24,707 nt of DNA from Ectocarpus siliculosus. Its lineage: Eukaryota > Sar > Phaeophyceae > Ectocarpales > Ectocarpaceae. Within the stretch, counting starts at the first letter, position 1. The number at the start of each line of letters is the position of its first letter. Shown in pieces: positions 1 through 22,151 of this stretch. A model generated the notes under the pieces. The model saw nothing but the letters and a program-made list of their open reading frames with translations, ran no database searches and was not told where the DNA came from. Made by a program: the position numbers and the translations under genes. The stretch is taken from the NCBI GenBank assembly GCA_000310025.1, contig FN648856.1:4990-29696 (forward strand), written 5' to 3'.

Positions 1-177
1 ACCTCAACCCCCTGTCGACTCCCCAAACAACCTCAGAGCCAGCAAGAGAGCAAGACCGCGGAGCTCGGACTGGTACCACCCTCTGCGTACCCACGGACTC
101 CACCCCCCGCGTACTACCCACAGTCGCCACCCCCCGCGTACTACCCAAAATCGCCACCCCCGGCATACCGACAATAA
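1..177 (+). CDS. Gene 0: last exon (C-terminal Pro-rich PPxY tail) of a four-helix membrane protein, 5' partial
   Basis: Frame 1 is open from the first base to a TAA at 175-177 and encodes a hydrophilic tail of 58 residues. It begins Gln/Ser/Lys-rich and ends in a 9-residue repeat: PPSAYPRT, PPPAYYPQS, PPPAYYPKS, PPPAYRQ. Three PPAY motifs fit the PPxY consensus known to bind WW domains. The DNA is clearly homologous to the last exon of gene A (11326-11487), and the match continues past the stop, so this is the end of a tandem paralogue whose other exons lie left of the window. It has one more repeat unit than gene A. Relative to gene A, one base is missing between about positions 10 and 26, so with the gene A splice site the PPxY frame would be lost. 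It may be a pseudogene or may use another acceptor. Homology is firm; functionality is open. Confidence 0.7.
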   Translation, partial: TSTPCRLPKQPQSQQESKTAELGLVPPSAYPRTPPPAYYPQSPPPAYYPKSPPPAYRQ

Positions 178-585
178 CGTGTCGTCGGCAAACGTGGTGG
201 CCAGTACTTGCGACGACGACAAGGTCGTGACAGACACCAACCAACCTTGATAGCAAGGTCACAGGCGAAGAGGCGCCCATCACATCGTCCTGTGGCAACG
301 GGACCTCCTGCCCAGAATGCTATAGACATGTATCGGGGATGGCATTGATGGATGTATATGGATCACTCGTTGTGAATTCTTCAAGATGATTAATTCTTGC
401 CTTCGTGCCTTCGATTCAGTAGCGTTTCGTGGTGGGTACGTGTATGATGGATTTGCTGTAGTTCTCGTGGTAGTCGCTGTTCGACCAGCCTCTGTACTTG
501 TACATGCAATTTTACACTACTGTACTAGCATTTATCATGTAAAGTAATTCAAGCAATGAAGAAAGGAAGACGAGGCATCTTGACA
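178..585 (+). repeat. 3' flank of gene 0, duplicated behind gene A
   Basis: The 3' sequence after the gene 0 stop matches 11488-12165 in order. Shared landmarks are 'gacaccaaccaac', 'gatagcaaggtcac', 'tgtatcgggg', 'gtggtagtcgctgttcgacc' and 'aaagtaattca'. It probably includes the 3' UTR and marks a segmental duplication that carried gene end plus flank. The match stops near 585, just before the decayed retroelement. Compared with the copy behind gene A, about 258 bp are missing near position 463. Confidence 0.7.
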
Positions 586-844
586 ACAGCGGTTCACGGC
601 AAAATTGATCCCTGGGTTGCGGTTGTCTAAGTTGGGGGTGGTCACGTCGCCTAAGAACACTCGCATTGCATCATACGTGACTGGACTTTCGAATACTTAC
701 CCCGAGGCCAGTAGCTGTTGACCCCGATACCAGTTCTGCGTCGGTGCCGGGGGTCGAGTCATGCAAATTGTTCGATTCCGAGGGCAATACGGCCCGTCGT
801 TGCGGATTGTGTTGAGTAGAACCGATGGTTCCGACGGCAGGTAG

Positions 845-1555
845 CCATTAGATGACCAGACGCATCCGTTTTTGTGTTCTCGTTTCGGGGGGTTTGTCGT
901 GTTAGACGGGCGCTTGGTGTTCGGGTGGTGGAATTCGCCCGGAATTTTCTGCTACATGACTGACGTGTTAAAGCATTCCGACGACCACACGTCTTTGGCC
1001 GATGGGGTCGTAACCGAGCAGGGGTGTACAGCTACGGAAATCGTCGAGCTCCAACTACCGATATAGAGAGCAGGAGACGCCTCCCTTACTGCTCCCGGAT
1101 GCCGCATTCCCTCAGGCTCAGGAGGGGGACGTTCAGGCTCGTTTTGCGCCAAGTGTTGTGTAGACGACGGTGTTGTTACTATTTCGAAGCGATGTGGACG
1201 CCAAACGGTGCACAGTGCAAAGTAACGTCGGCATCGTGTGCTCCGGATGATTTTCGCGTGTTCGGTCGTCTCTCCCTCCCGCCCTGATGTCCCTGCACAA
1301 GCTGTTTTCGTGGCAGACGAGGTTGTTTGTGTTGGTGCGGGAAGTCGATATGGTAGGTGTGACCATTTCAGTTTCCACACCGACGAGCTAGAACGCCTAC
1401 GTGCCACAATTCAAGCGTGCCCCAAACACACGCCAGTTTGAGCATCTAAGTCCGACTGGAGAGGCGTGATCGGAAAGCTTTTCCTGTATGTGAAGTACCT
1501 GGTAGTGCGGTCTGGTGGATAGTTTGTTCGCCGCATGCTCGATCAGTTAGGTTGG
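845..1555 (+). pseudogene. Reverse transcriptase domain remnant of the retroelement
   Basis: Frame 2 carries GGFVVLDGRLVFGWWNSP, the FG..NSP box of reverse transcriptases, up to a stop at 1064-1066. After that stop the same frame goes on with PGCRIPSGSGG (1094-1126) and CVDDGVV (1157-1177), where CVDD stands at the catalytic YxDD position. From 1299 the match moves to frame 0 (KLFSWQTRLFVLVREVDM), then back to frame 2 at about 1380 (DELERLRATI) and on through GKLFLYVKYLVV and FVRRMLDQLG up to about 1555, interrupted by more stops. This alternation is typical of a coding region that has decayed by small indels. The upstream fingers region (600-844) is too eroded to read. Confidence 0.65.
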
Positions 1556-1599
1556 CGCCGGTGTGCCTCAAGAACCCAGAGCCGCGTGTGTTCCGAACG

Positions 1600-2330
1600 A
1601 CGCCGATACGGATAGATCCGGAGTTTCATGCAGACATGTGGTTTTGGAGCCTGGCCGTCGAAGGGGTGCCGGCTTCGCCTCTAGTTCGTTCTTCGCACAG
1701 CCATACCCGTTCCTCTTGTGGTCAGGCCCGTCCCAAGACGCAATGCGGGGGTAGTTTTTTCGGCCTGGGTACTGCTCGGAGTTTGGTAGCGATATTGTGG
1801 ACGGGCGAAGGGGCGCGATGATTTGAGCACCATTACAGTCGAATTGCTTCTTCAATGGTGGCATGCGCCTGGGTGCTCATTGTCCAACCCGACATGTGGT
1901 GGGGCTACGCGCGGAATGATGGTGTTCATATGGTGGGAGACAACTCCCATAGTGTTTCGCGGGAAAACAAGTGCCGGGGGGGGAGCCCCGTTCGGGGGCG
2001 CTTATGTGTATCCCGCTTAGAGATGGGCAGCGGGTGGTGATTTCCGGCGTAACATGTTAGTTGGAAGTGTCAAAAACATGAGTGATTGCGGAGATGGTAC
2101 TTTCCCATGGGAGTCGGAGTTCATTCAACGAACGAACGTCTTCGTTTGTCCCGGCCCAATGCCGCATGGCGTGAACTGAACAGGTCTTGGACCCCGAGAA
2201 GCCGTCGATCTCTATACCGGAGTCGTTCTTGGCGGCGAGAGCGTCCGCGAGATGCAGTTTTGGGCAGTCGTCTTGAACAACTTGCCCGTCGGGTTGGAGG
2301 ACTTGGTGTGCTTTTTTGTAGATTGAGCGG
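1600..2330 (+). pseudogene. RNase H region remnant of the retroelement
   Basis: Frame 1 holds RIDPEFHADMWFWSLAVEG (about 1609-1662). Frame 0 then gives FFAQPYPFLLWSGPSQDAM (1689-1745), which looks like the 'LWSDAS..A.GG' segment with its Asp changed. Frame 1 resumes at 1855-2040 with VACAWVLIVQPDMW, VGDNSHSV and NKCRGG; the Asp of GDN falls at a probable catalytic position. A weaker stretch in frame 0 (about 2187-2327, with EMQFWAVVLNNL) may be the linker to the recombinase. Each frame change implies at least one indel. The region cannot encode an active enzyme. Confidence 0.55.
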
Positions 2331-2429
2331 AGAAGCGATGTCCTCCCAGCAGAGGAGCATGAGGCCGTGCTATTTTCAAGCCGTCGTGGTCTTTGTGGCG
2401 TGTGTTGTGGTTGTGCGGACAAGGGCAAC

Positions 2430-3235
2430 GTTGCGATGACTGTCTCCGGGCTGATTGCCGCCGTGCAGAAGAACTGTCACCAGGTTGACAGACAGGTAGA
2501 CTTGCCGACCGATGCGTTTATTCTCAAGCGTGGTTTGTTGGGAGTCACACGCGCTCTTGCGCAGGCCGGTATCTACGAAAGGTCGGATTCGCGTGGCGGT
2601 TTTCCTGGGAGATACTGTTGGGGGGGGGGCGACAGTTGGTACACTCGTGCGGACCTATCGGTCGAGCATGGTGGCTACGATTGGACTCTAGCGTAGTTTC
2701 TAGCGGCACGATCAGCTATCTATGCCTCATCGCCGGGCCGAGGTCACCCGGTGCATTGCCTGCGGCGGGAAGACGTCCGAATTTTCGAAAGAGAGCGAGC
2801 TTTGTCTGCGTTGCATCGACACAGGACCACGGGTGTTCGGATTCGGTTTCTTCGCGGTCACGAGGAGATCAATTGGAGCAGGGATCATACGTGACGACAA
2901 AGCACGAGACGACCGTTCTCAGATCGGCGCCGGTGGCGGTGCTGGTGGAAATGATGGCGTGTCATCTCCCTTTCTTTGCCTGAGAACGCCCCTCGGTGTT
3001 CGTGTCCCTGCAGTAATGTATCGTGATTATGGTTTATGGGGTTTCCAAGGCCCAGAATATCCTTCACCAGATCATAGAGAGGATGGTGGTGACGAGACGG
3101 GTCGGCCTGCATTTATTTACTGAGATCGGAGCAACAACGCGCCGACAGCCGGGGGAAAGGTACCGGATACACAGACAGGGAGAGGTATACTGTAGATGGA
3201 AGGGAGTTTCAGAGAACAATGGAGGACGGACGTAG
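2430..3235 (+). pseudogene. Tyrosine recombinase-like remnant of the retroelement
   Basis: An N-terminal part in frame 0 (about 2434-2600) contains GLIAAVQKNCHQVD and FILKRGLLGVTRAL, similar in pattern to the start of tyrosine recombinases of these elements. Frame 2 then gives SVSSRSRGDQLEQGSYVT (from 2843) running into VAVLVEMMAC (to about 2968). After a break the same frame 2 continues at 3056 with NILHQIIERMVV, GLHLFTEIGATT, YRIHRQGEV and CRW. The latter resembles the eroded C-terminal 'H..R.GGAT ... GRW' block. The catalytic tyrosine cannot be placed. The family call is inferred from motif order and from the RT-RNase H upstream. Confidence 0.5.
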
Positions 3236-3240
3236 ACATG

Positions 3241-3739
3241 GTGTCTCGTAAACTACTCCAAGAGAGGGCAAGAAGTTTGTGCAGAGAAAAAGTCAAGCAA
3301 TCACGAAGTTGAGCTTCCAGAAATCGTCGAACAACATAATAAGAAAAAAAATGACACAAATATATACTTGTGCAATAATAGGTGAGTTTCAGACCGGCTC
3401 ACACAGGGGAGCAGGGGAAGGGGAGCGGACATTGTTTATTGCAGGACAGTCCAAGTCTCCAAGTGGAGTAGTATTTTACCACGTCGGCGCATCAGTGCCA
3501 GGCGGAGCACAGGGAAGCTAGACGTACAAACGAAGGACAACAACAGTGCCAGTTGTTGCTCCATTTGACCACATTCTTCTCCCCGAGCAATGCAGCTATT
3601 TATTGTTGTCGTCTCTCCCACCCGCTCCACCCTTCCTTGAGTTTCCCCCCCGAAAACGGGGGAGGGGGGGGCGCACGGCACAGCATACTTGCACAGGAGT
3701 AATATCCAGAGGTTCCCAGTACTCTTTAGAGATTTGCAG
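3241..3739. other. Gene-free spacer after the retroelement
   Basis: No exon, RNA gene or clear repeat could be supported here. The stretch includes an A-rich patch (3340-3370) and a C-run followed by a G-run (about 3646-3670). Short ORFs on both strands show no recognisable motif. Confidence 0.4.
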
Positions 3740-3741
3740 TA

Positions 3742-3945
3742 CAGATGGCGCCCGCACTTCAGAACCTACCTGTTAAGAACATGAGGCTCAAAAAATCCAA
3801 AACTCATGAACATGAGCGTATTTTAGTGGTCCCCGTTAAGAACCTCACACTAAAACCTATATAATGGCCATTCGCAGCCTCAACAGGCAACTAAGAACCC
3901 CAGCCTCACACAAATTAAGATGTTCTTAAGTGCGGGCGCCATCTG
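3742..3945. mobile_element. 204-bp miniature inverted-repeat element (MITE) with TA target duplication
   Basis: The ends are 24-bp terminal inverted repeats (3742-3765 and 3922-3945) that match at 23 of 24 positions and begin CAGATGGCGCCCGCACTT. Both are flanked by TA (3740-3741 and 3946-3947), as expected for a Tc1/mariner-type TA target. Inside are further related words (TTAAGAAC, GAGGCT) and no coding capacity. An eroded copy of one end lies at 19262-19285. The element sits about 0.8 kb upstream of the gene A start codon. Confidence 0.72.
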
Positions 3946-3947
3946 TA

Positions 3948-4769
3948 TGATCGGTATTGGATGGAATTTTCTACGACGAACTGGTGTGCGGGGACGTGCT
4001 GGTTGGATGTCAAGATACATGTCAATAGGCTAGACTTCTACGGTAGAGCACCATTTGGGGTCTCGGTACATGGAGATGGCATGGATTTTGTTCTCAGTAG
4101 GCCTGGTCGTCGTACATGGAAATATAACTTGGATTCCGGATGATGCAAGAGGGGAGCGACTGCTGTGGTCGTGTCGCGCCCTCGTCGTTTCCCGTTGAGT
4201 TCATTGGAGTCTCTCGGAACCAGAGAGCCTGTGTCCACAGGGAAACGCATTCTGTACTGCAAGGTCAGCAGCAGATACATACAGTAGACTTATAGCAGTC
4301 TGGTACAGACGTGGCGAGCCTGATTTTTTCGACCCCTACCACCGCCGCCACTCGCCACGCTACTGTCCTGCCGTACTGTTTCTGCTGCTGTACATGCCTT
4401 ACTTGTACCTCGTAAATACCCCGACCATCGACTCAAATTGCTGCTCTGCGTGCGGCCCGACAAACAGCGCATTTTCAGCCGGGAGGAGCGTTCTGCGCAA
4501 AAAAATACTCCGTGGCTTGATGGCTTGATGACTTGATGACTTGCTGCTGAACTCCGTAAAAACTCGAACAGTTTTCGGCTCCGCTGGGACAGACAGAGAC
4601 AGAGGGTCCACGCTGCTCTACTGGTGTACATCAAACAGCACTCTTACACAGCATGCTGTAAACACACACCGGGAGAGAGAACGACCACCGAATCATGATT
4701 CAGGCATAGCGAGGGAGCAGACAGACACACACGTTGTCAGGGCGATTGCTGAGGATTGCTGGATGCAAG
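3948..4769 (+). promoter_or_regulatory. Upstream region of gene A (presumed promoter and 5' UTR)
   Basis: No other gene is supported here, so this stretch must hold the promoter and leader of gene A. No convincing TATA box is visible. The bases just before the start, TGCAAG-ATG, are the same as those before the gene C start at 22047. This suggests a conserved leader end or initiation context. Confidence 0.35.
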
Positions 4770-4883
4770 ATGCCCTACCACAACCACCCACAACAGGTCA
4801 TCTACAACGTCGGCGGCGGTGCCCCAGGGGGTGATCCAGGGTGTTGTGGGGTGCCTCCAGAGGCCCCACGTCCCGTGAAAGCG
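4770..4883 (+). CDS. Gene A exon 1: start codon and cysteine-containing N terminus
   Basis: The ATG at 4770 opens 38 codons that end in phase 0 at a GTGAGAG donor. The peptide is His/Gln-rich at first (MPYHNHPQQVIYNV), then Gly-rich, then PGCCGVP. Gene C exon 1 has the same order, ending in PGCCGVP a few residues before its own phase-0 GTGAGA donor. An in-frame codon 36 nt upstream (4734) was not used because it is GTG and lies outside the conserved part. Confidence 0.82.
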
Positions 4884-7800
4884 GTGAGAGAAGCACGTAG
4901 ATCATTAACGGTTCCAACCTCTTCATCAGTAGCAGCTACTGCTGTCTCTCTTCTCTGTCTCTGTCTGTCTGTCTGTCTATCTCTCTCTCTCTTATTTTTT
5001 TGATGTGACACAACGAATCCATCTCAATCATAGAGTCTGACACAGATTAGCAATGAATTCATAGCGTCAGAAAGTACCTGTGTTTTCAGTGTGGTACGCG
5101 TATGTGGTATGCATGTGTGCGGACATATTTCGGAGTAAGTGAGGACACACGGGAGTGGTCTCACCATTTCCTTACCGTTTTGTGTAATTTTTTGTCATCC
5201 GATTTTATGCATACATGTACGTACGCATATGCAGCAGTAGCAGTTCTGGAGGCACGAGCTAGGGCCGACAAGAGGAAGGTCACATAGAGAGTCTACTCTA
5301 CAATTCTTCACATTAAAAACCGTTCCGATCTCTCTCTACACTGTACCTTCATATGTCCTGTACTGATCCAACACTTGACGCGGTCGCCGGTGGTCACGTC
5401 GGCACAGGTTAACTTACCCTAAAAAGGTACACTCAAATAAACTGGCCCCGAGGGGTCCGCAAGTCAATAGAAATCAACGACAGATATTCTGGAGTCCTCC
5501 GCTCCCTTTGCGCGCTATGCGAGGTAACAACTGAGACTAGGAGTTAGCATCACGGGCCACAGAGAAAGAGGTACACCCCCTTGGTTCAATCTTGGTACAT
5601 GACAACTCAAGCAGAGACAAGGCCATCTGACACAGAATAAGAGAGAAAAATGAGAGAAAATGAGAAAAAAGAGAAAAAAGAGAAAAAGTAAAAGGAAGAC
5701 GGAAGGCAAGAGAAAATAAAATGAAAAAGAGCGAGGACAGCAAAGGACCAGGCCGAAAAAAACAAGAAATATAAAGAGACAGAAAAAGGCACACGGTGGA
5801 GAGACCACTGACGAACAAGCAAACACGCAAACATGGCCACCAACCAGCGATACCTGTAAATGGTACCCCATCACTAGTGGGGGTTGGTGGAATGGTGAAG
5901 CGTTGGGGGGGGGGGGATTGGCTAAAAGAAATTCAATCCGGCACGTATCACGCCACTCGGTCCGTCTCTTCTCGTTTGCTTTCTTCCCTCGCCGTCTCGT
6001 CCGCCTCCTGCCCCCCTCCCGCCTTATTGGTTGTTGGCTTGTGGTCTCGTTTGAGCGCTCACTGTCGGCTGGCCTCTTCTTCCTTCTTGTGCCAGGAGGT
6101 CATGAACCTCTTAGCTCCCTGCAGCACCGCCGCATGCCAGGGTACTCCCCCCTCCACCTTCGCGGCTTCCGTCACTTTAACTTGGGTGCCGTGTCTTTCG
6201 GTACCGAGATTTCGAGACAACATCGGTCAGTTTCCGTAGATCCGTGGTCGGGCCGAATGCCTTCAGGTCGTCGAGCACACCCTTCGGCCAGTTCTGTTCC
6301 TGTCCCCCCCTACGTCGCTTCTCCCCCCCCCCGCCAGTTCGCCGAGCATCAGCCGTTTCGGGAGTCGCCCGTGAGACGTCTTTAGGCATGCATGTGTAAG
6401 ACAAGAAAATACATTACATGTGTGCATGTACACACACGCATAGTCGAAAGTTGCTGTGAAACGATGATGAGAACGAAGAGTTGAAAGCGAGGAGGATGGT
6501 GGTGAAAGCACTCCAAAACGAACTCGAGTGCAAGGTATCAGCCTTCGTGGACGTGTGCAGTTTTCTTTTATTGCTACCGTTTCTGCCTTTGATCCGGAGA
6601 ATAGATTGGTCTCCCCGGTGCCGCCCCCTCACTGGATCCCAGTTAATGTCATTTAGAAGTGTTTCGTGGTTTCAACCGCACTGAGACTGACTGACGTATT
6701 TTCATTGGTCAGCCGGTTAGCGCGGTTAATGCCAATAATAAAGGCACACGCAAGCGCGACGTATCGTGTTTTTGGCAAACGAAACAAATTCGACGGGTGG
6801 GTGTGCTATGCTGTGGACCTGGTGGTGTCTGCGATAACTCGAGTGTCAAGCTGCATCCGTGGCATGGGTTGTGGCATGGGTTGTGGGGGTCGACAAGCTT
6901 CACATTTCGGTTACAGACAATTGCAGCAGCGGCAGCAGCAGCAGCAGCGACCCAAGGTCGCCTCCTCTGGGAGCGGTCATTTTCTCTTCAGTAGCACGCA
7001 AATCTACGAGCAGGCGGTGGTCTTTATCCGTTAGAGGCATAGTCTAGAGATGGCACCGGGTGCGATCGGATCTGTAACACCTCGTCCTTGCTTTTAATAT
7101 TTGTTGCCCCCCCTGTGCCATCTCTCCCACGCCGGCGCGGAAATTGAATTACAGCAGAATGAGATTCGTTCTATAGCTTTTGCAAGGCACCCCGGTGCGA
7201 TCTCTACGGCCGTTGCGATGCCCAATTAGATACACCCAAACACGGTCCTGTATGCCCACAACCCGGTGCGATACTGAATAGAATTGGGTACCAGTGTATC
7301 AGCAGATTTACGGTACATGAAGAAATAAGGAACGGATCTCTGCACGTGCACATGTCGGCGGACCGGGAACATGCGACGACCAACAAACGATAGACTAGAC
7401 TATGGTTTGTCCACCTGTGGTACATGCCGTATCAGTTTTATGCCGATGTTCTTTTTGGCTGATGTGCTCCCCTCGGTTATGTTGGTCTTGTGCGAATACT
7501 AATGTATGGCAGTACAGGATGAGTCCCTTCTGTCCCTTCTGTAAGGTGATAGGTTGTTGTGTGCTTGGTTGAGTGTACGGTACGGCATGCAATTCCCATA
7601 ACCGGTTGAACGTAAACCATTGATCGTTCCCCCGCGTGAACCGCGACCGTACATGTGTGTGTGTGTTTTCGTCCTATATGTTGTGTGGCGATAGTCCCCC
7701 AATTTTTCATGGTGAGACGTGTACTACACTCTTCAGGATATTTTGTCGTAGAATTACAACCATCCAGGGTCACACAGGAGGGGGTAAAAACCGGGGCTTT

Positions 7801-10800
7801 TTTCTTCTCTTTTATTTAATTTTCGTGCCCCACCTTCCTCTTGCGGTGCGTGCCAAATTTTATTTTTTCCTCGCGAGAAGGGTCCAGCCGCCCCTTTCCC
7901 TCGTCAACGGTGCTAACGTAGGAGTTTGGTACTCACGAGAGCTTTTCAGCTGTTTTTCGGTTTTTCGCTTTCACCGCAAATTGGTGAATTTTCACCCCAT
8001 GGGGATTCGAACTCACGACTTTGCGACAGCGGTTTCGAGGTTACCACCAGACCACCGGGGCGACCGGATCACGTACAGAGAGGATTGGCGCCCCGATGAT
8101 ACCCTCACCACGTGTAAAAGGTGGCCACATGTACCTCTTGACACAAGTTCCAGCATGTAGCCTGGGGCCGCCGGCGGATTCTTCAATCTCGGACTTGGGG
8201 TCGGTGAGATCGCACCCCGGTTCGATCTCTCCGACCGGCGCCATCTCTCTGTCTCTTGCGGCGTTTTTTTTTTTCACTTCTAATGATTCTCGTATGCCCT
8301 TGTGTCAGCTGAGTCACGTTTGGAAACCTGTCGTCATTTTGACGGTGGTATTCAATAAACCTATTCAGCTGTACGCTCAGGCGTTACAGTGCTGTTTTTC
8401 TCCTATCCTGGTGGGGTTAGGGTTAGGGTTAGGGTTAGATTCCCGGCACCCTTCGACGCATGGTTCCTCACGTTGAATCCGACCGGTGGTTCAACAGGGT
8501 AATTAATATGTTCATCGCACCGCCGTGCTATGTGCCTGTGTAAGTTTCTGTGGACCACGAACCGGAACACCAAGTAGACCCTGTGTGCGCGTTCGGCCAG
8601 TCTGCGATGATGGGTAACGATCTCGTTACAATACGGCAAGCTATCGACGAGGGCAACGGTGCCCCTTCACCCCCTCGGCTTTCTCGACTGGGCATTCGGA
8701 CGCAGAACGACGGAGAACCGAACTTCGGTTCTGTTCCAACGGTCTTTCTTTGGACAGCTCTCACGAAGGTTGTTCCAAAAGGTGGCACTTGTCGGCCCTG
8801 GCAGCTGCGTGACCCCTCCTTTCTCGACGTCTCGGGCGGTTTAAGGACGGGCTACAGCCCTCCTACGTATGGTGACACCGACCTACCCTAGAGCTTCCAC
8901 CACTGGCATACTTTTCACTTTTCACCACCCCACGTTGTTGGGCAGTGGGTGCTTATCGTCAGAAGCGAACATGCAAGGTTGGCTCAAGACCTTGACTATA
9001 AACGAGTGAAGAGGGCACGCTGGCCTCGTACAGCAGAAGTGGGACCGCCCTTCTACCAACACTCAGCACGATGACACACGAAATTATCTAGATCTCCACA
9101 GATCCGTCTCTAGTGCCGGGTATATCTGACACACGTAGTAGGTGCGAGGCTTCTACAGTTGTTGGGCATCGGCAAGAGGGGAGGCAGGTTTGCGCAAGAG
9201 AACGAGCACGACGACCGAAATGACACGAACAACAATGACCACCTAACCCCAACTATCGCCATGATCGCACCTGTATGCTGACGCCCCCCCCCCCGCGATT
9301 GCTGCCTTCGGCAGGCAAGGCAATGTGCTATTTTATCGATCGTTATCCACGTGATCAGCTTCTTCTTAGGCGGAGGGCTTTTTGTGTGGCAGCGGAGTGC
9401 TTGTTTTACCGCATTTGTGATGGGCGGACTTCTCCTGTGCGTCTACGAACGGTACATGTACGTCATCGGCAGCGTGGGGTTCGCTCTATGTGCGGTGTTC
9501 GACGTCTTGGCCGTCTTGCGATGGTGAGCCCCTGGAAAGCGCAGGTTCCAAGAGATGCAGAACTTGAGCTTCTGTAGCAACGGTCACGCATATATTGGTG
9601 TCTGCTGTTGTCCAGCAATGCATCTCCCTCAAACCAACGGCGCTCGCTGCTGCGGGTGGATTGGCTGCGTTACGAACACCTCCGCCGTCCTCTTTGCAAG
9701 CACACCATGCACAGCCCAACGGATGGTCTCAGACCGGCAGTGATGTCTCTCACGTAGGCCAGTTCTACTCATCTGCAGATTGAAATATTGGATTTTCAGA
9801 GCTGATTGGCATTGCCCTCAGTTTGGGACGATCTTCATTGCTGTTGATAGACAGATAAGCGTAGGTTGAGGTTGAGGGCTCCAAAGTTACTGGTTCCGCG
9901 TTTGCTGTCCATGAGAGTATCTGAGCCCGGCCATCAGGCTGGAAACGAATCCGCCCTTTTTTCTTGTTCGCGTGCTCGGGAGTTGGGAGATGTGTTCCAC
10001 GAGTTCTCGTAGCGCCGCAGACAGGAGTCAAGCCTTGCAACCCACGGTCGGCAGGGCCTTCCTCATTTCCGTCCAAGCCAACGCTACAACGCACCTTTGC
10101 TATTTCAGGATCACTTTCGACGATGAAATTTTCGATAGCGACGACGACTACTACACCATCTTCCAAGACGACGACACCCAATCGGAAGAATCGAGCGACA
10201 GCACTATTCTCCTCTGGTTGGCCGTGCCCCCTTTCCTCGGAGCCATCGCAATGGGCTTGGGTGCCATTTTCACCTTCACCGCGGTCTTCGTCTGGAAGTA
10301 TGGTGGAGGCACCGCCATTCCCCACGTGAGAGCTCAAGAATAGTTCCGCACCGCCTCGCCGGCGCAATAATTTGTTTCATCGCAATACCACCACCCCGGC
10401 TGGTCCGGTGAGAACCCGGCGTGCTCCGTCCCGGCTTTGTAGGGATGCGAGGTCAATGGTCTAACGACTACGGCATGCACGACCATGAATACGATCCCCC
10501 CCCCCCGGCTTCGTCCGAAATGTCATGACGACAGAGCGTTGGCAAGTGGACACCCCCTCACGAAGTACCGGCATACGTACGTGGATGGAGAGCTTTAGAG
10601 TTGTTCTTGCCATTTTGTCTACTCGGCCCTACCCGGCAATCCTATACTTCGACTTTCCTCTTTCAGAGAGCGAGTGCACGATCCAGCAATGTGCGATCGC
10701 TACGCCGAACCTGGTATCATTTGTCTTGCCTAGCTTATCGTTGTGTATCCGGCGGGAAGTCTTTTTGGGTGAAACTTCCCCCGCCTGCGGTCCATGCACC

Positions 10801-11487
10801 ATTTGCTGTCCAAAGTTCTTCCTCGCACCAAGAAACACTGTTCTCCGGGTAGCGGGGGTGGATGCGAAATTCAAAGATGCCGGCGGGTACCTTGTCCCCA
10901 GGTACATCGCCGCATTCAGAGTTGCTTATATTCCTTGTTTACTTTGCAAAGGGGGTGGCGAAGGTTGTCGATTCCAAAGATACATCTCAACGGGGTTTGA
11001 CACATGATGGAGTTCTCCAGGAAACATAGATTCTATGCCTTCGTAGCCGAAATTGATGAAAGCATGGTCGTACTGTTTCTGTGTCCTTGTACATGCGCTA
11101 TCCAACCGTTCGAAATTGTCGTCTATTAGAGCTTGTCGAACAATTCCTCTCGTCTCAAGATGTTGGTGTTGTTCCGGTGCAAAACGATCGTTCAAGAGGT
11201 GTTCGACACAGTGACTTACTCACTTATTTTGCGAAGGTACTGCTGTTCGACAGGTTCCACAAGGCCTATCCGTCGTTCTTAGGCAAGGCCCCATTTGTGG
11301 TTGTGCTGCATCCTTTCCGCACCAGGTATCGGTCGCACCTCAACCCACCCTCGACTTCACCAAACAGACTCAGAGCCAGCAGGAGAGCAAGACCGCTGAG
11401 CTCGGACTTGCACCGCCCGCGGCGCACCCACGGACGCCACCCCCCGCGTACCACCCACAGTCGCCACCCCCGGCGTACCGACGATAA
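4770..11487 (+). CDS. Gene A: four-helix membrane protein with PPxY tail (join of four exons, 233 aa)
   Basis: Spliced model: 4770-4883, 9315-9523, 10109-10325, 11326-11487; 702 nt, intron phases 0, 2, 0, all donors GTGAG. Residues 1-38 are a soluble N terminus with PGCCGVP; its adjacent cysteines could be lipid-modified. Helices lie near 43-63, 67-82 and 86-105, with F-VMGG-LLC in the second. A strongly acidic loop (about 110-138) precedes helix 4 (about 141-170). The tail (181-233) ends in two PPAY motifs (219-222, 228-231) of the WW-binding PPxY type. Gene B has the same exon layout, and its exon 2 aligns without gaps over 69 codons with about 20 identities, which strongly supports the model. 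The family is not recognised; the topology resembles MS4A/CD20 or MARVEL proteins. A role as a membrane adaptor recruiting WW-domain ubiquitin ligases is inference only. Confidence 0.85.
4943..4994. repeat. (TCTG)n/(TC)n microsatellite in gene A intron 1
   Basis: A run of TCTC and TCTG units begins about 60 bp after the exon 1 donor and grades into (TC)n and then T-rich sequence. It is simple-sequence DNA without coding potential. Confidence 0.8.
5637..5790. repeat. Purine-rich low-complexity tract (about 150 bp)
   Basis: The plus strand is almost all A and G, built of GAGAAAA-like words. The opposite strand reads as artificial Phe/Leu/Ser-rich hydrophobic ORFs, which should not be taken for membrane proteins. 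It lies within gene A intron 1. Confidence 0.8.
6923..6949. repeat. (GCA)n microsatellite in gene A intron 1
   Basis: There are about nine GCA units with one GCG interruption. Just upstream (about 6862-6890) the 14-bp word GGCATGGGTTGTGG occurs twice. Confidence 0.8.
7046..7125. repeat. Short inverted repeat AGAGATGGCAC / GTGCCATCTCT
   Basis: Perfect 11-bp arms at 7046-7056 and 7115-7125 enclose 58 bp. A related right-hand end (GGCGCCATCTCT) occurs near 8238-8249. The neighbouring word CCGGTGCGATC recurs at about 7192 and 7263 and inverted near 8207. These are likely remnants of a small inverted-repeat transposon family. Confidence 0.45.
7994..8061 (-). repeat. tRNA-like fragment (possible tRNA-derived SINE head or tRNA pseudogene)
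   Basis: On the minus strand the segment starts GCCCCGGTGGTCTGGTGGTA, has a box-A-like TGGTCTGGTGG and a box-B-like GAGTTCGAATCCC, and ends CATGGGGT, which could pair with the 5' GCCCCG. The T stem pairs poorly and the anticodon arm is ambiguous (loop TGTCGCA or CTGTCGC), so it is not a working tRNA. It lies within gene A intron 1, antisense to the gene. Confidence 0.42.
8414..8438. repeat. Interstitial telomere-type repeat (GGGTTA)4
   Basis: Four exact tandem units of GGGTTA plus one further G, with non-telomeric sequence on both sides. TTAGGG is a common eukaryotic telomere unit, so this is an internal telomeric tract within gene A intron 1. Confidence 0.85.
8439..9314 (+). other. Distal part of gene A intron 1
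   Basis: No exon, RNA gene or repeat family could be supported. Overlapping ORFs on both strands between 8400 and 8891 have no recognisable motif. Near the 3' end is a C-run (about 9284-9295), followed by the acceptor TTCGGCAG at 9307-9314. Confidence 0.4.
9315..9523 (+). CDS. Gene A exon 2: membrane helices 1-3
   Basis: It follows the acceptor CTTCGGCAG and ends TG|GTGAGC (phase 2). It encodes ARQC..., a helix with IVIHVISFFLGGGLFVW, a second with FVMGGLLLC and a third with YVIGSVGFALCAVFDVL. Its 209-nt length equals that of gene B exon 2, and start and end phases agree. Conserved positions include IV.H.I, MGG.LLC and FD. Confidence 0.88.
9524..10108 (+). other. Gene A intron 2 (585 bp)
   Basis: It begins GTGAGCC and ends GCTATTTCAG. 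Nothing else is recognisable inside. The frame upstream of exon 3 happens to be open from 9972, which reflects chance and not a longer exon, because the homology to gene B begins exactly at the acceptor. Confidence 0.7.
10109..10325 (+). CDS. Gene A exon 3: acidic loop and membrane helix 4
   Basis: The exon starts G|ATC after TATTTCAG, completing the phase-2 Trp codon, as in gene B. It encodes an Asp/Glu-rich loop with FDSDDDYY and QDDDTQSEESSD, then a helix with LLWLAVPPFLGAIAMGLGAI, and ends IPH|GTGAGA in phase 0. If intron 3 is retained, translation adds only VRAQE before a stop at 10341-10343. Confidence 0.88.
10326..11325 (+). other. Gene A intron 3 (1 kb)
   Basis: It begins GTGAGAG and ends CTTTCCGCACCAG. 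It holds a C-run (about 10497-10507). Overlapping ORFs at 10525-11007 (+), 10629-10907 (-) and 10926-11195 (-) have no recognised domain and may be traces of an old insertion. Confidence 0.5.
11326..11487 (+). CDS. Gene A exon 4: Pro-rich PPxY tail and stop
   Basis: It follows the acceptor CCGCACCAG in phase 0, encodes 53 residues and ends with TAA. It starts VSVAPQPT, compared with VMAPN in gene B, and ends PPPAYHPQSPPPAYRR. The frame forced by the upstream splice is exactly the frame that gives the PPxY tail, which confirms the join. Confidence 0.87.
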   Translation, partial: VSVAPQPTLDFTKQTQSQQESKTAELGLAPPAAHPRTPPPAYHPQSPPPAYRR

Positions 11488-12639: not shown

Positions 12640-13345
12640 CATCTTGGGCAAAGGAGTACACGCACCGCCCCGGTTTGCTTTCGGTTTGCTTACATGCACA
12701 GTAGTTGGCATCCAGACATATATGAATGCCGCGATCAGCATATATATTTTGGAGTGAAATTTGCTTCGTAGGTTACGACAGACAGTGAAACCGATAAGAA
12801 AGGAGAAATTAGATTATAATGTGTGATTCGGAAGAAAGTGAAAAGGATCAACGGCAACGATGCCCCAGGTGTGTTTAGGCTTCTGATGCGATTCAACGAG
12901 GGGAACATGTGTGTAGAGTGGGACTGGGTTTCACACGAGGTTTGGGACAGTATTCAGACATATGAAAGCACACGATCAGCATATGAAGGAGAGTGACATT
13001 TGGCACATAGGTTACGACAATCAAACCCGAATTTAGTAAAAACTGTATGGTTCGACAAGTGAAACAGATCTATATGTGTCAACGACCTTGCGTGCATGTG
13101 TTTAGATTTCTGGTGCGATTCAACGAGGGAGACATGTGTGTGGAGTGGGAGTCGGCTTCACGCCGGCATATTTTGGACAGAAAAACCCTGGAATCCAGAT
13201 ATATATGAATATCACGATCAGCAAGCATATTATGGAGTGAAATTGGGCACGAAGGTTACGACAGACAGCGACACTGATTTTGGAGGGAGTCGGGACTCGG
13301 CTTCACGCAGGGACACGGGACACGGAAACCCCTGGTTACGAATGT
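12640..13345. repeat. Degenerate tandem repeat, unit about 240 bp, about three copies
   Basis: CGATCAGCA-centred blocks recur at 12731, 12971 and 13213, that is, 240 and 242 bp apart. Each is followed by GGAGTGAAATT- and AGGTTACGACA-like words. The block TGCGATTCAACGAGGG with ACATGTGTGT recurs at 12885 and about 13112. A more eroded relative (CAGTGAAAC, CGGCAACGACGCCC, GAGACATGCGTGT) continues to about 13660. Confidence 0.65.
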
Positions 13346-15585: not shown

Positions 15586-15693
15586 TCACACGTTTCCGCT
15601 GTACGGAGGTGGTGCCTGGGCGTGGCCAACATACTGAGGCTGAGCCTGAGGCGCGTGGTGCTTCATCTGGACGCCGTGGTTTGGTGCCATGAC
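15586..15693 (-). CDS. Gene B exon 4: short Pro/His/Gln tail with PPPY
   Basis: After the acceptor GCAATGCGACAG the exon opens in phase 0 with VMAPN and ends APPPYSGNV and TGA, 35 residues in all. It is shorter than the gene A tail and has a single PPxY motif close to the C terminus. Confidence 0.82.
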   Translation of the reverse strand, partial: VMAPNHGVQMKHHAPQAQPQYVGHAQAPPPYSGNV

Positions 15694-18600
15694 CTGTCGC
15701 ATTGCAGTCCAGAAGCAAGGAACGAAAGACGGCGGTTGGTGTTTGAGGATGGCGCCGTGCGCACGACGCGGAGGAATTGCGAGATAGAGAGTGGGGCCGG
15801 GGGGGCTACAGAGAACGCTCATACAACAACGGGTTTTCGCTGCTCTACTATGTTTCAGTAGACAAGGGTGCAGAGAAGCCATCGAATCGTCAGATAGTCG
15901 AGGGGCATCGAAATAGAGTTGCATAGATGGGAGGCTGCAATCAGGGGTTCTGGGAATACTCAAACGTGTGGAGTCTGACATTGTCTCAGGTTTATCCTGG
16001 TTCCGAGGCCGACAAGCACGTTGCTAACCTCTCCACCCTCCTCTTGAGGGAGGTGACTCCCACGAGCAAGGAGAATGTGGGTTCATACAAACAAGTGCTG
16101 CTCTAAGTGGAGTCGCCGGTTGAGGCTTATTACCCGCTTTCCGAGGGCAGGCGTTCGATCTCGGCACAGAAGGCAAACCACATGCCAGATGGAAGGCTTG
16201 GTATCGTAGGTCGGAATAGTGGTGAAGCTATCAAATTTGCCACGATTCCATTGCGCCGTCGAGGGAACCGCCGACGTAGGTATAGTGGAATCCGCCCGTT
16301 TGCGTGGGTTCGTGAGAGGCCAAGTCTAACCGAGAAATGAAAAAATCTCATGCCAGGAAATCAGCAGCAACGACAGAGAACGCGAACACTGACATCAAGT
16401 ACGAGTTTCGTGGAGGAAAGATACAAACATTTTTCGTGCCCCCCCCCCCCCCGTCGTAGCGGACAAGACACACACCACCTACGATTCCTATTTATTGTCA
16501 TTTCACTCAGTGCTCTTATGCCGAGACTCACTTGGGCACCTCCGGGCATGGGCGGGCCCATCGCGTCTGGGGCGCCGCTCTTCTCCCAGTTGCATATAGC
16601 AAGGAAGATGAACACGATCGCGACGATGAAGGACAAGGCGCCGAGCGCAGCGGGCAGAGCGAACCACCCGACGGCGCTGGAGAGCTCGGAGCCGTTGTAG
16701 TAGTAGTTGTCTGATGTTGCATAGGCGATCCTGGAATGGCGAGAAAGAGGCGAGAGTCGGGAACTCACTGGGCTCACGGGCTGGAGAATCAAGCATCAAC
16801 CCTCTACTCACGCCACGGGTTCGCCGACAGGCCTCTTTACTGTCTGCAAGTTGACCATCTCCCTACCTGGTGCCAAATTGTCCTGTGATATTTCATGGCC
16901 CCCTGGGTTGTGTGCAATATTTGGAAAAAATGTGCGACAGCAGTAGTCTTGCCACCGTTTTTCCACCCCAGCCCCGCGTCGGAAGAAAATCGAGCAACAG
17001 TCTATCGCTACACATTACAAATGGGCGTGCTTCTAATCCACTTTCCCGGGTTGCACTGCACTCAGACGTGCAGTTCAAGATATTATATTAGGGTAAATCA
17101 AAGCGTAGTTATTCCAATTTGGCTACACAATCGAGAAGAAGGTGGACACGTGAGCTAGGATTATGTTTGCACCCCAATATCTCACCAAGCTGCCATCGAG
17201 ACCAGGTCGAAGATGCACCCGAGGATGAACAGGGAGCCAGCGACGATGTATGTGCACTTGTTGAACTGGCACAGGAGGATTCCTCCCATGATGAAGCTGA
17301 TCAGACTCGCCAGCCAAATGCCCCACAAAATCCAGCCGAACGCTAGAAGGGCGATCGCATGAACGACGATGGTGGCGATGGTGGCCCCCCTCGACTGAAG
17401 AGACAGCAAAGGAATGACACGATGTTCGGGGCAACAATCATATTCGAAAGGACTCTTGAAATTTTGAACGATGAATGTAGCTGGAGTACACGATAACACA
17501 CTACACCTGATATGCTAATCGTTACCGAACGTATGCGGATGCATTTACCAACAATTGCCCACGGAGGTCGAAGACGAAAACAACACGTATCAGGTAACAT
17601 ATTTATGAAAGTTTGCAAGTTTAGACACACAATTGGGCGGCCGACTTGGGTTGTGGTATGCTGGGATCACTAAAATACCACCACACGGGGGTAACCAAGG
17701 CGCCATGCATTCTACTGCCAAGAAGAGGCCTGACTCCGCCGTCATCGGGCTTCACATTATTAGTGGATAAATCATCAAGAAAGTCTCGTCAGTCCTTCGG
17801 CCGTGCAAAGTGGAACCGCGACGGACGCTCTTGAAAAGAACGAGTGCGGGTGGGCATGTTGCGTGTTTTGAATCGATTCGTGAGCTTCAAGGTGTTGTAC
17901 CAAATTCAAATTATTGAAGATCGGGTGAAATCTTGTTGAAGATAGGGTGAAATCTTGTACTGTCTAACCGGTTCCGTAGGACAAGCGTGAGGATATGTTG
18001 TACAGGTTGGTCTGTTCCAAAGATGGCTATGTACACCCATTGGGCATCAGACTCTTGAATATTAATATTTCGAATGGTGATGCTTCGTTCAGGTTCTTGA
18101 CTGCTGTGTCGAAGTATATGCCAAGAGAGGCTGTCTCTTATGGTATTCTGTATTGCTCCAAAATCAAGTGTCCAGGGGTCAAGGAAAATGGCTCCAGTCG
18201 TGTACTTCGAAATACTGTGCTGTGGTTTCCTCAAGAGCAACGGAAAACCCCAAAAAAACAATCACATTAAAATGGGACAATGAATGAATCTGGTGCAGAT
18301 CTTGGGCAAGATTGGTCAAGAGTCATGGGCCTTGACAGAAATCTTTGGCCCGAGACCCCTGTCAATCCGAGCATCGCGACAAATCTTGTGGGTGCGGCGA
18401 GAATACGATTTTTCTGACGTACAGTTACCGCCCGCAATTAAGAAACGCTTACCGTATATGACACAAGATAACACACCCCCTGGGCCGATTTTCAAAGCTC
18501 GATTTCTCAACAGCAGGAAGAGTCACAGCGCCGAAAACGGCGGCGTTGGAACCGTCTCGTCGAGAGATTTTCGAAAATGTATTGTTTCGTTTATGCATCC

Positions 18601-21481
18601 TCTTGGTCGTGGAGTAATCGAGCTTTGAAAATCGGTCCAGGGGGTGTGTTATCTTGTGTCATGTACGGTATTTCAGGTCCAGCCTCGAATTCTCATTGTG
18701 GGCTATAAACTCAGCGTATGTCATTCAATTTTTTTGTGCCGCCAAATGCTGTTGAATTTCTTGAATCGGCAATTTCTTATTTTCTCTTCTTGCTTGAATA
18801 CAAAACGTTCAAATTAAACAAACGATTGCCCTCACCAGAGCTGGCGGAGAGCACCATCAACACCGTACAGCAGACAACATATCGCTGTTCGCAGCCTGTC
18901 TGGTGTGCTGTGCCAGAGCTTTAGCGCCAGCAGAGCAGAGCGCAGAGCCCGCAGGGGGCCGGAGGGGGCGCCGCAAAAAAAACACTCCCCCCTCGGTGTA
19001 CAACTAAAAATAATAATGCACTATGGGAGGGGGGGGGTAGGGGGGTAGGGGGAAAGACCGAGAGAGCTGTGGGATTTGTTTTTTATTCGACACACATACT
19101 CCCCGTAAACCCTCGTTTCTTATGTAGTAGGGCAGCGGTCGCTGCTGTGTCTCTTATTGAGACATTTCTTTTTGTGTGACCCAGATTGAGCTATGTTTCT
19201 CAACCCTATTTTCTTATTTTTCGTGAAAAAGTGAGCCTATATTTCTTTCAAAAATATTTATTTCTTAATTGCGGGCGCTAACTGTACAGATGAATTTTAA
19301 TTTGCCCGAAAGTCTCAACCCTTTCATTCTTCCAATTCTCGTGATCTTTTGGCTTTGGATAGATTTCGGGTATTGAACAGCAGTGTACATAGTGCATCTC
19401 TCCTGGAAACTTTAATGTGTACTTGTATCTTGCAATCGCAAGATCCGAGATCTTGTCATTACAAGGGACGGGTGCTCACAACATCAAACTTAAGAATTAT
19501 TTCTTTGGACACGAACAGCAAACAGCAGCGACCACGTCTGAAGTCAGTCTGAGCACCAAAGTATGACGAGCAGTACCACCCCCGATAGGTAACAGACGGT
19601 ACGTCCGTGGGATCATGTAGCACTGCTGTCACCAAGTGTCTGGCAGACACTGAGCTCACACAACATCAGTGTCTGATGCAGCGCAACGGTGTCTGCCGTG
19701 CAGCCACTTAAAATGCAGAGTTACATCGGACACCATCTCGTGCGCAATCTTGAAATGTTTGTGCCGGTCGGGAAGAGAAAAAAGAAACAACCATTGCAAG
19801 CGAGATCTTTATCTCTCCGGCTGATCTCTCTCCCGTGTGATAAAACATTTTTTTACCGCTGCCAACTGCTGCTGTAAATTCATCTCGTTCTTCATTTATG
19901 TTTTCGCGAATGAACGGCAGTACCATATGCTATCATATGTACAATATAAACGACAAACGGAAAATATTTCCGGGGGTACCGGCGACCTCGTTGTTTCTCC
20001 AATAAATCTACTTGTGTATGCATACCACAGACCGTCGTGTACGTCAACCAGTTTGCCGTGAGAGTCAGCGAGAGGATGGCAATAAACTCGCGACCCCCTC
20101 CGCACCACATCAAGATGGGATCCTAGGGAACACGAAGTAGGAGGGGGGAAGAGGTAGTGGCGGTAGGAGCTGACCGGGTATCTCTATCTGGCTGGTCTGA
20201 GTACCGGCACAGCAGTGATCCAAAAAAAGCACGTCGGCGATGAAGTGATTCTGCCAAATAAAATACAAATAAATATGATTGATACCTGTATTCCACCGAT
20301 GCATACCACATTCGAGGCTTGCAGCGGCTTCCGCGCGGCATCACACGAATTCCAAGTTGAAGCGAATGCTGTTGTTGTTGTAGATTGCTCCACGACAACG
20401 AGCGTTCCACAAGTGAGAGGATAAAGATGCGCAAACAACCGTCTGCTCGAAAAAAGTCTCGACGACGCAGTTCCAGCGTCGCCGCTTTCGGCAACGCCAC
20501 CTTCTCTACGATACGACAAGTCTAATCATCGGGCCAAAGGCGTGACAAACCAACCGCGACCTGTGCGTCGGAGTGTACGAGTGACCACAGGCATCTCGGA
20601 ATCATTCGATTGTCGGTTTGAGCGGCGGTACACTATGCATAACAGTACACAGTACGGCGAGCGTTTGATGTGTAGAATGGGCGTGCCTGCAATGCTTGTC
20701 TGTGGTTGCACTGAGATCAATAGAACGGTCGGTGCACGAACAGCCAGCCTGCTAGTTTCGTCGTTGCACGGTGACACGAAGAGCAATATCGAAAATACAT
20801 GTTGTAGAAATAAAAATGCTCGGAAAAAAGAAAAAAATAAAAAAAATTAGCTGGCGCCGAGCGAGAGAGAAGAAAAAAATATAGCTGGCGCCAAGCTGTG
20901 GCTGGCGCCGAGCGATAGAACAATTGTTACTCTTCATGGGAGGATGTACGATGACATCCTCAACAAAAGTGACCCCACGTGACCCGCAGCAGTAGCAAAG
21001 TTCACACAGCTTGGTATGTCGAGGATTTGCGGCTACTATCCGTCAGTGGTGTACAGAATTCTGGTGTCAGTTGATGAAGGGGATTGCAAGCTGCGAGCTT
21101 TTTCGAACGCATGGATGTAGACGGCCGAAGAGCCATCTGCCAAACCTTTCTGCAGCTTTCTGTCCTCTCTAAGCGCGCGACCAACAAGACACAGTCCAAG
21201 CACGACCGACTGACGATGGAACTGAGAGCAGAGCAAGAACAGGCAGTACCCCAACTCTCCGCCTCATCTGCAAAGAAAAACACTTCGTTCGGTCAATTTT
21301 TCGAACCCAAAATCATCATCATACGACACAAAACCGCTACCTAACCACATGATATTAGACTCACCCCGCGCACGTGTCCGCTGACATTTGGGGGGACGGT
21401 GCAGCTGCACCCATTCTGCGCATGGACCACCGTAGTGGTGGGAGGCACGGCGATTACCGTAGCAGGTTGCTGGATCGCCAT
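15586..21481 (-). CDS. Gene B: four-helix membrane protein with PPPY tail (join of four exons, 210 aa)
   Basis: Minus-strand join: 21481-21365, 17394-17186, 16730-16532, 15693-15586; 633 nt including stop, phases 0, 2, 0, all donors GTGAG. Residues 1-39 are a soluble N terminus with NGCSCTVP. Helices lie near 44-63, 68-82 and 87-107, with FIMGGILLC in the second. The loop (110-129) is Tyr-rich (DNYYYNGSE) and carries the sequon N121-G-S. Helix 4 is at about 130-155. The tail has GPPMPGG and ends APPPYSGNV, with a PPPY motif at 203-206. The layout matches gene A exon for exon, while the loop and tail differ greatly. The family is not recognised; a membrane adaptor role through WW domains is inference. 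It is convergent with A and divergent from C. Confidence 0.87.
15694..16531 (-). other. Gene B intron 3 (838 bp)
   Basis: It begins GTGAGTC and ends GCGACAG on the minus strand. It contains a C-run on the plus strand (about 16439-16452) and nothing else recognisable. Confidence 0.65.
16532..16730 (-). CDS. Gene B exon 3: Tyr-rich loop and membrane helix 4
   Basis: The acceptor CGCCATTCCAG is followed by G|ATC, as in gene A. It encodes ATSDNYYYNGSELSS, a helix with GWFALPAALGALSFIVAIVF and a Gly/Pro segment ending GGAQ, then the donor GTGAGT (phase 0). N-G-S is a possible glycosylation site if the loop is lumenal. Confidence 0.88.
16731..17185 (-). other. Gene B intron 2 (455 bp)
   Basis: It runs on the minus strand from GTGAGAT to CGCCATTCCAG. 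No repeat or RNA gene was recognised in it. Confidence 0.65.
17186..17394 (-). CDS. Gene B exon 2: membrane helices 1-3
   Basis: The acceptor GCTGTCTCTTCAG precedes TCG, and the exon ends TG|GTGAGA in phase 2. At 209 nt it has the same length as gene A exon 2. It encodes SRGATIATIVVHAIALLAFG, then FIMGGILLC and YIVAGSLFILGCIFDLV. The frame is also open upstream of the acceptor, but the homology to gene A begins only at SRG. Confidence 0.9.
18451..18669. repeat. Foldback: 58-bp inverted repeat with a 103-nt loop
   Basis: The arms 18451-18508 and 18612-18669 match at 55 of 58 positions. They begin ACCGTA-ATGACACAAGAT and contain AACACACCCCCTGG. An RNA from either strand would form a long hairpin. 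It lies in gene B intron 1. It could be a foldback transposon or a small-RNA precursor. No target duplication was found. Confidence 0.75.
19025..19052 (+). other. G-rich tract with quadruplex potential
   Basis: Runs of 3, 9, 6 and 5 guanines are separated by A, TA and TA, which fits a four-run quadruplex pattern with very short loops. It lies on the non-template strand relative to the plus direction, inside gene B intron 1, so the gene B transcript would carry the C-rich complement. Confidence 0.7.
19262..19285. mobile_element. Eroded single end of the 204-bp MITE family
   Basis: The reverse complement reads TACAGTTAGCGCCCGCAATT and then AAGAA, close to the 3742 element end TACAGATGGCGCCCGCACTT and AAGAA, with about five differences. 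No matching second end was found about 200 bp away, so this is a solo remnant. Confidence 0.4.
19635..19651. repeat. Small perfect palindrome AGTGTCTG-G-CAGACACT
   Basis: It has 8-bp perfect arms with one central base. The core GTGTCTG recurs twice within the next 60 bp (about 19668 and 19690). The role is unknown. Confidence 0.5.
20851..20915 (+). repeat. Triplicated 14-bp word CTGGCGCCGAGCGA
   Basis: Copies lie at 20851, 20885 (variant CTGGCGCCAAGCTG) and 20902, next to an A-rich stretch. It is a short local repeat in gene B intron 1. Confidence 0.55.
21365..21481 (-). CDS. Gene B exon 1: start codon and N terminus
   Basis: On the minus strand the ATG at 21481 opens 39 codons (MAIQQPATVIAV ... 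NGCSCTVP ... GHVRG) that end in phase 0 at a GTGAGTC donor. It matches the exon 1 pattern of genes A and C: an early Gln pair, a VI pair, a Cys doublet before VP about ten residues from the donor, the same phase and the same GTGAG donor. The assignment rests on this pattern and on strand and position, since about 4 kb of intron separates it from exon 2. Confidence 0.72.
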
Positions 21482-22046
21482 AGCGGTTGGGTTGCGGATG
21501 AGGATCTAGGCGCGCGAGTCGCTGTAATGCAGGAGTTATTTGTTGTGGTGGTGTGCGGCAAGCGGTGGGTGGGGTGATCAATGGCAGAGAAGCTCGGAAC
21601 AATAATCAATTGTTGTTCGGCCGCACAGCCAGCTGCCCGCAAATGAAAGAGTCGTTGGTTGTGGGTTTCGCTCTCCGCTCTCACGCTCTCATGACCCTAG
21701 GAAACTTCCTGTAGGAAATTTCGGGATGTCTCGCTCAACAGGCGGCAAAGAGGTTTTGTGGTATGTGTACGTCGAAGAAAGACAAGAGTTCTCTCTTGTG
21801 TAGATAGGCTCGTGCAGATACACGAGAGCTTCTTCTTTTCTGCCTGTAGATGATACTTCATACATAATACGGCGGTGTGCATTGCTTTGGATACCTGGCC
21901 AAACTACAGGCCATACACCTTCACGCAGCAGACAGCCACAACAGGGGAGGGGCGAAAGGCAGAAGAGTTTGACCTCAGTCTAGACGTCTACATAGACCGA
22001 TAGCCAGCCATAAACTTCAGCGGCGCGACTCTCTCGCGAGTGCAAG
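21482..22046. promoter_or_regulatory. Divergent intergenic region between genes B and C
   Basis: The start codons of B (minus) and C (plus) face away from each other across 565 bp, so both leaders and promoters must lie here. No TATA box is obvious. Two small hairpins lie side by side near 21778-21832 (ACAAGAG-TTCT-CTCTTGT and CTCGTG-CAGATA-CACGAG). A shared bidirectional promoter is inferred. Confidence 0.4.
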
Positions 22047-22151
22047 ATGGAGGTCCACCAGCAGCAGCAACAGCAGCACGTGATCCACGTCGTTGAGGGC
22101 GGCCCAGGTTGCTGCGGCGTGCCCAAAGGGGCTCCATGTTCCGTCACGGGG
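22047..22151 (+). CDS. Gene C: exon 1 of a further paralogue, rest beyond the window
   Basis: The ATG at 22047 opens 35 codons (MEVHQQQQQQHVIHVV ... GPGCCGVPKGAP ... SVTG) that end in phase 0 at a GTGAGA donor. PGCCGVP and the VI pair match gene A exon 1 closely, and the bases before the ATG (TGCAAG) are identical. No exon 2-like sequence (MGG.LLC, FD) was found in the remaining 2.5 kb. This is expected if intron 1 is about 4 kb, as in A and B. The protein is presumably another four-helix member. Confidence 0.72.

Follow-up and report, generated by a model that had tools for sequence, protein, structure and literature searches.

A small family of predicted four-helix membrane protein genes in the brown alga Ectocarpus siliculosus, with PPxY tails in a subset of the copies

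Complex multicellularity evolved in brown algae apart from animals and plants, which makes home-grown membrane organisers in these organisms of interest. A stretch of 24,707 nucleotides from Ectocarpus siliculosus, hereafter called the window, raises the question of whether short, widely spaced exons join into genes of one such membrane protein family, and what the proline-rich tails of some of these genes would do. The window lies on a contig of 29,696 bases (C301) and shares its end. An earlier note on this DNA had claimed a cluster of at least four genes for an unnamed family of four-helix membrane proteins with PPxY tails. The exons on which our analysis is based are as follows.

Gene 0, last exon only: 1-177, plus strand; ...VPPSAYPRTPPPAYYPQSPPPAYYPKSPPPAYRQ, then stop; three PPPAY units
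Gene A, exon 1: 4770-4883, plus strand; 114 nt, 38 aa; N-terminus with GCCGVPP; phase 0 end at GTGAGA
Gene A, exon 2: 9315-9523, plus strand; 209 nt; helices 1-3; phase 0 to 2; exon 2 of the C104 copy is also 209 nt
Gene A, exon 3: 10109-10325, plus strand; 217 nt; acidic loop and helix 4; phase 2 to 0
Gene A, exon 4: 11326-11487, plus strand; 162 nt; tail with two PPPAY units, then stop
Gene B, exon 4: 15693-15586, minus strand; 108 nt; tail ends APPPYSGNV, then stop
Gene B, exon 3: 16730-16532, minus strand; 199 nt; loop and helix 4; phase 2 to 0
Gene B, exon 2: 17394-17186, minus strand; 209 nt; helices 1-3; phase 0 to 2
Gene B, exon 1: 21481-21365, minus strand; 117 nt, 39 aa; MAIQQPATVIAVPP...GCSCTVPPNVSGHVRG; phase 0 end at GTGAGT
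Gene C, exon 1 only: 22047-22151, plus strand; 35 aa, MEVHQ...GGPGCCGVPKGAPCSVTG; then GTGAGA

Splicing of the four exons each of genes A and B yields coding sequences of 702 nt (233 codons and stop) and 633 nt (210 codons and stop), respectively. All internal exon boundaries in both genes lie between AG and GT (GT-AG), the phases are 0, 2, 0 in both, and the 209-nt exon 2 and the exon 2-3 junction TG|G ATC are shared. Both splice models of the earlier note were thus reproduced. Its count of 20 identical residues out of 69 in exon 2 was likewise obtained on recounting. Reciprocal searches of a local ORF set, consisting of six-frame ORFs from the window and six fetched stretches of the assembly, linked the two genes through exon 2 with E values of 2.4e-8 (B to A) and 9.6e-8 (A to B). 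In the same set, exon 1 of B resembled the first exon of a copy on another contig (C16a, E 2.9e-5), while the top outside match of its exon 3 in a genome search was C353:6578-6760 (E 1.6e-7). Exon 1 of A has a colinear homologue of 114 nt in the C104 copy with a DNA identity of 75%, and its GCCGVPP-like motif recurs in exon 1 of gene C. Judged from these features, A and B are very probably real protein-coding genes that belong to a tandemly duplicating family of small membrane proteins. An extra exon considered for gene B (minus strand, 20122-20033, DPILMWCGGG...) was dropped, as it found only itself and one match at E 0.058 among the copies, and as exon 1 of B joins the 209-nt exon in phase without it.

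At the edges of the cluster, gene 0 is represented by a last exon and gene C by a first exon, just as had been described; the claim of at least four genes thus holds for two complete genes, A and B, while the other two are single exons in the window. The remainder of gene C would fall past the end of the contig, which is also the end of the window. Intron 1 is long in A (4431 nt), B (3970 nt) and the C104 copy (3527 nt), which would explain why only a single exon of gene C precedes the contig end. On the other side, the DNA preceding the window reads N and the acceptor of the gene 0 exon lies outside the window. This exon has one base fewer than its counterpart in A, early in the exon and upstream of the repeats, and this 1-nt shortfall puts the frame into its PPxY repeats in doubt.

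In a simple hydropathy scan of four loci (A, B, C104 and C16b), run greedily over 19 residues, four hydrophobic segments appeared in all four rows. This supports the claimed four-helix topology, which we consider likely. The scan placed no loop between helices 1 and 2 in A and C16b. The loop between helices 3 and 4 differs widely in its acidic residues (D and E): A has 13 of them, C104 eight, C16b five and B two. Basic residues show a small excess ahead of helix 1, and the short loops differ little in charge; the excess is compatible with an N-terminus in the cytosol, in which case the tail would be cytosolic as well. A fold predicted for exon 2 of B from an alignment with A alone consisted of two long helices and was poor (pLDDT 73.5, pTM 0.35).

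To what extent the family reaches beyond the window was assessed in the whole assembly of 189.5 Mb in 492 contigs. Searches with core sequences at E up to 10 returned 15 matches for B, 8 for A, 18 for a C16-type and 14 for a C353-type query, a total of 55 in which many places recur across searches and the queries' own exons are included. All but one of them (54 of 55) lie on four contigs (C301, C104, C353 and C16); the single match elsewhere, on C27, covers 31 residues at E 1.24. This confinement to four contigs argues that the family is not a product of chance. With first and last exons added, 13 loci were obtained, namely 0, A, B and C on C301, one on C104, three on C353 (C353a-c) and five on C16 (C16a-e), ten of which contain at least one core exon; these counts are lower bounds, as the first-look search can miss copies and some of the DNA reads N. 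The view of a fast-diverging multigene family with an old shared exon layout is supported.

That layout is conserved in part of the family. A, B and the C104 copy, which has the exon order of A and a first exon of 114 nt, keep the 209-nt exon 2 with phases 0 and 2 intact, whereas in C16b and C353a one more intron, of phase 1, separates helix 1 from helix 2, so that the 209-nt exon is replaced by pieces of 61 and 136 nt in C16b and of 64 and 136 nt in C353a. The second core exon of the other C16 and C353 copies begins at about the same split point, and measures 136 nt in C16c and C16d and 134 nt in C353b; the first core piece of C16c gave a weak match only (E 0.31). Ahead of helix 1, eight of nine first exons (A, B, C, C16a, C16c, C16d, C16e and C353a) encode Cys-Cys or Cys-x-Cys together with Val-Pro, the ninth (C104) having YFGVPP instead. 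A tree was built from nine of the 13 loci, those with the exons required (all but gene 0, gene C, C16a and C16e), with C353c as a long, half-filled row; it sets A, C104 and B apart from the copies on C353 and C16 (support 93/91, not starred). Shuffling the PPxY labels on this tree gave no information, all 500 shuffles being equally low.

Comparison with known families agrees with the description of the family as unnamed, no named relative having been found in Pfam, PHROGs, PDB sequences or viral and prokaryote contigs. Across eight core rows the lowest Pfam E values were 0.034 for YrhK (two of eight rows) and 0.035 for Herpes_UL43 (one of eight), both taken as chance. The best PHROGs match was phrog_23187 in one of eight rows (E 0.0057), a PDB sequence profile gave E 0.6 or worse, and scans of viral and prokaryote contigs, which pick up close relatives only, returned no relative. 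MARVEL (PF01284), Claudin/PMP22 (PF00822), plant CASP-like and tetraspanin (PF00335) models are all absent from the 13 Pfam families listed for the eight rows at E up to 10, a listing from which the HMMER filters drop most matches above about 0.1.

In its shape the family resembles the MS4A proteins, whose genes lie in tandem clusters. MARVEL, claudin and plant CASP-like families are four-helix membrane organisers too, and the likeness of our proteins to them consists in being four-helix membrane proteins; they differ in that none of the respective models is listed. Like MS4A/CD20, the proteins of A, B and C104 have four predicted helices with short 1-2 and 2-3 loops and a longer 3-4 loop, the genes form a tandem cluster, and the termini may likewise lie inside. 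For MS4A/CD20 itself, four helices and an inside N-terminus are given in PMC4815072, which also treats the MARVEL four-helix layout and names a CCG motif and cysteines in outer loop 2 as tetraspanin features. Four helices are shared with the tetraspanins as well, but the helix 3-4 loop of A, B and C104 contains no cysteine, and where CCG does occur, in A and C, it is part of the N-terminus.

The helix spacing of A, B and C104, set beside the MS4A spacing as it is generally known, could also mean that these proteins are very distant CD20/MS4A homologues sharing the same domain. A weak CD20 (PF04103) match was obtained, for the core of B alone among the eight rows, at E 0.94 and 10 bits compared with a cut-off of 27.9 bits. 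No CD20 match was returned for full-length B at E up to 10, none is listed for exons 1-3 of C104 or for C353a, and the PDB sequence profile found no relative, which makes such homology highly improbable. The family thus resembles MS4A in shape, and by tested membership it would belong to none of MS4A, MARVEL, claudin and tetraspanin. The part of the literature that we consulted yielded nothing on this membrane gene family. We regard it as an apparent small orphan gene family with good sequence evidence, whose function is a guess.

Any such guess starts from the PPxY tail, and the claim that this tail is a trait of the family did not hold. Only A, with two PPPAY units, and B, with PPPY, have an intact motif, and in both it falls among the final 8 residues. 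Gene 0 differs from A in frame by 1 nt, and the tail of C104 is broken, with its acceptor AG lost, a shortfall of 2 nt and no PPxY in the tail frame. Most C16 and C353 copies stop early: C16b, C16c, C353a and C353c have a stop in exon 3 soon after helix 4 and C16d has one right after it, so that five of the six C16/C353 copies with exon 3 in hand end soon after this helix. The sixth, C353b, has an exon 3 without stop, and a search for its tail found none. Gene C, C16a and C16e stand outside this count, as their ends were not covered. Searched against the genome, the A tail matched A itself, gene 0 in two pieces (second best, 83%, E 4.2e-14) and C104, and beyond these gave two matches only at E 0.99 and 2.3, while the B tail found only itself at E up to 10. 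From these reading frames, PPxY marks a subset of the copies only.

How strongly the copies are kept by selection can be judged from A and C104, which are parts of a duplicated segment that can still be aligned over its flanks and introns. Identity over exons 1-4 is 75, 75, 76 and 81%, compared with 58-72% in sampled introns and 78% in the 3' flank. Exons 1-3 thus surpass the introns in identity but fall short of the broken tail exon and the 3' flank, a pattern that argues against strong constraint. Length differences of exons 1-3 are 0, 0 and 33 nt, the last because exon 3 of C104 is the shorter one, and all are multiples of three; intron 2 has 107 gap columns. These frame-keeping lengths appear to be a better sign of constraint than identity. 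Between A and C104, exons 1-3 gave a dN/dS of 0.67 (bootstrap pN/pS 0.53-1.01), exons 2-3 one of 0.60 (0.45-0.95) and exon 2 by itself one of 0.64 (0.42-1.26); the gene 0 tail compared with the A tail gave 0.47 (0.29-1.13). Ten pairs from five of the eight C16/C353 loci (C16a, C16e and C353c left out, codon pairs with a stop skipped) ranged from 0.36 to 0.80; the bootstrap upper limit stays below 1 in four of them, all involving C353a, and reaches or passes 1 in six. Three pairs of C16 first exons gave 0.18-0.44. Taken together, these ratios indicate that the family evolves fast under weak purifying selection, with some copies apparently decaying: the C104 tail, C16e, where the GT after exon 1 is lost and a stop stands in place of the GTGAGT donor of the others, and perhaps C16d.

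These signs of decay are what a birth-and-death family with little present function would leave behind, its copies arising by segmental duplication in a repeat-rich region, drifting as constraint is relaxed and decaying, and PPxY being a chance product of a proline-rich repeat. The dN/dS values of up to 0.80, the likeness of A and C104 in exons 1-3, which does not exceed that of the 3' flank, the damage to C104, C16e and C16d and the frame difference of gene 0 all fit such a history. So does the stretch from 116 to 2363, about 2.2 kb of gene 0 tail and downstream flank that is 81% identical to the C104 locus, a likeness from which the duplication units seem to reach well beyond the genes. Against it, A, B, C353a and the core of C104 are open over three or more exons with fitting phases, all four C353a pairs have pN/pS bootstrap limits below 1, and the A/C104 length differences in exons 1-3 keep the frame. 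On balance we hold drift without much function to be rather unlikely, close behind the reading in which the tails of A and B recruit WW-domain proteins.

A cytosolic PPxY tail is a classic ligand of WW domains, and the E. siliculosus genome contains 75 WW matches, all above the family cut-off, in about 42 loci (merged within 10 kb). Recruitment by this family would then proceed as follows. Both protein ends would face the cytosol, and the membrane bundle would act as a scaffold or organiser in the manner of MS4A or MARVEL. The PPxY tail of A and B would bind WW-domain proteins and thereby bring them to the membrane, and the tail-less copies would keep the membrane function and drop recruitment. 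We put this mechanism forward tentatively, as a possibility.

Small multi-pass proteins with PPxY are known elsewhere as Ndfip1/2 and LAPTM5, the PPxY adaptors of NEDD4 ligases, and A and B might be of this kind, with a tail that recruits a NEDD4-type ubiquitin ligase and so sorts membrane cargo for endocytosis. PPxY near the extreme C-terminus of both proteins would suit this role, and PMC8509885 describes PPxY (PY) motifs as ligands of Nedd4 WW domains. No Pfam match of the Ndfip or LAPTM5 kind was obtained, however, and the motif is missing from most copies whose end was seen. The genome contains 28 HECT matches in about 14 loci (merged within 10 kb), no WW match lies within 82 kb of any of them, the distance of the nearest pair on one contig, and no WW-HECT gene was seen in an exon-wise search that can miss split domains. 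Adaptors of NEDD4-type ligases are therefore improbable here, and with no WW-HECT ligase gene among the matches, a WW-domain protein of another kind is the likelier partner.

A tandemly duplicating four-helix family whose PPxY copies recruit WW proteins remains our best explanation overall, though one to be held with caution: an intact PPxY is confined to two genes, such a motif arises readily where a tail is rich in proline, constraint is weak and several copies are broken. Should WW proteins indeed bind to the A and B tails, PPxY docking could be studied here in a setting without NEDD4-type ligases. A more far-reaching version, in which the scaffold would be a brown-algal invention unrelated to MS4A, MARVEL and tetraspanins, the PPxY tail part of a WW network without a NEDD4-type ligase, and tailed and tail-less paralogues together a rapidly evolving repertoire at the cell surface, serving for instance recognition or contact between cells, strikes us as a long shot.

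Some further features of the assembly were observed alongside. On C16, a contig of 8.06 Mb, the copies are found within the first 41 kb, and TTAGGG repeats are present at the opposite end. An origin of the family at chromosome ends is not claimed, since the end that bears the family has no telomere repeat among those listed and since TTAGGG runs are frequent within contigs. Runs of five TTAGGG units occur 146 times in the genome, many of them internal, compared with 2 for the reversed control, and a short run lies inside C301 at window 8417-8434. The EsV-1-7 domain, which is greatly expanded in brown algae, gave at least 150 matches above the cut-off in the assembly (150 scored of 880 candidates) and 0 in 14 control genomes, as expected for a brown alga.

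Several repeats lie in the window. At window 7966-8066 on the minus strand we found a tRNA-like repeat with A-box-like and B-box-like stretches, recognised by the consensus of these boxes. It has at least 40 genome copies, all with at least 83% identity (40 scored of 225 first-look candidates, its own copy counted), and may be a tRNA-derived SINE. ARAGORN called no tRNA in the window, Rfam gave no tRNA match at 7966-8066, and our literature search found nothing on a tRNA-derived SINE in Ectocarpus; one possible SINE of unclear 5' origin is mentioned in PMC12477816. An inverted repeat at window 18450-18670, with 62-nt arms that are 94% complementary and 97 nt apart, has a 222-nt copy of 95% identity in the C104 locus and resembles a small non-autonomous DNA transposon. 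Window 12706-13278 contains local direct repeats, one of 90 nt with 81% identity and one of 169 nt with 71%, and a further transposon-like element at window 3740-3947 consists of an inverted repeat with 26-nt arms (TACAGATGGCGCCCGCACTT...) that are 156 nt apart.
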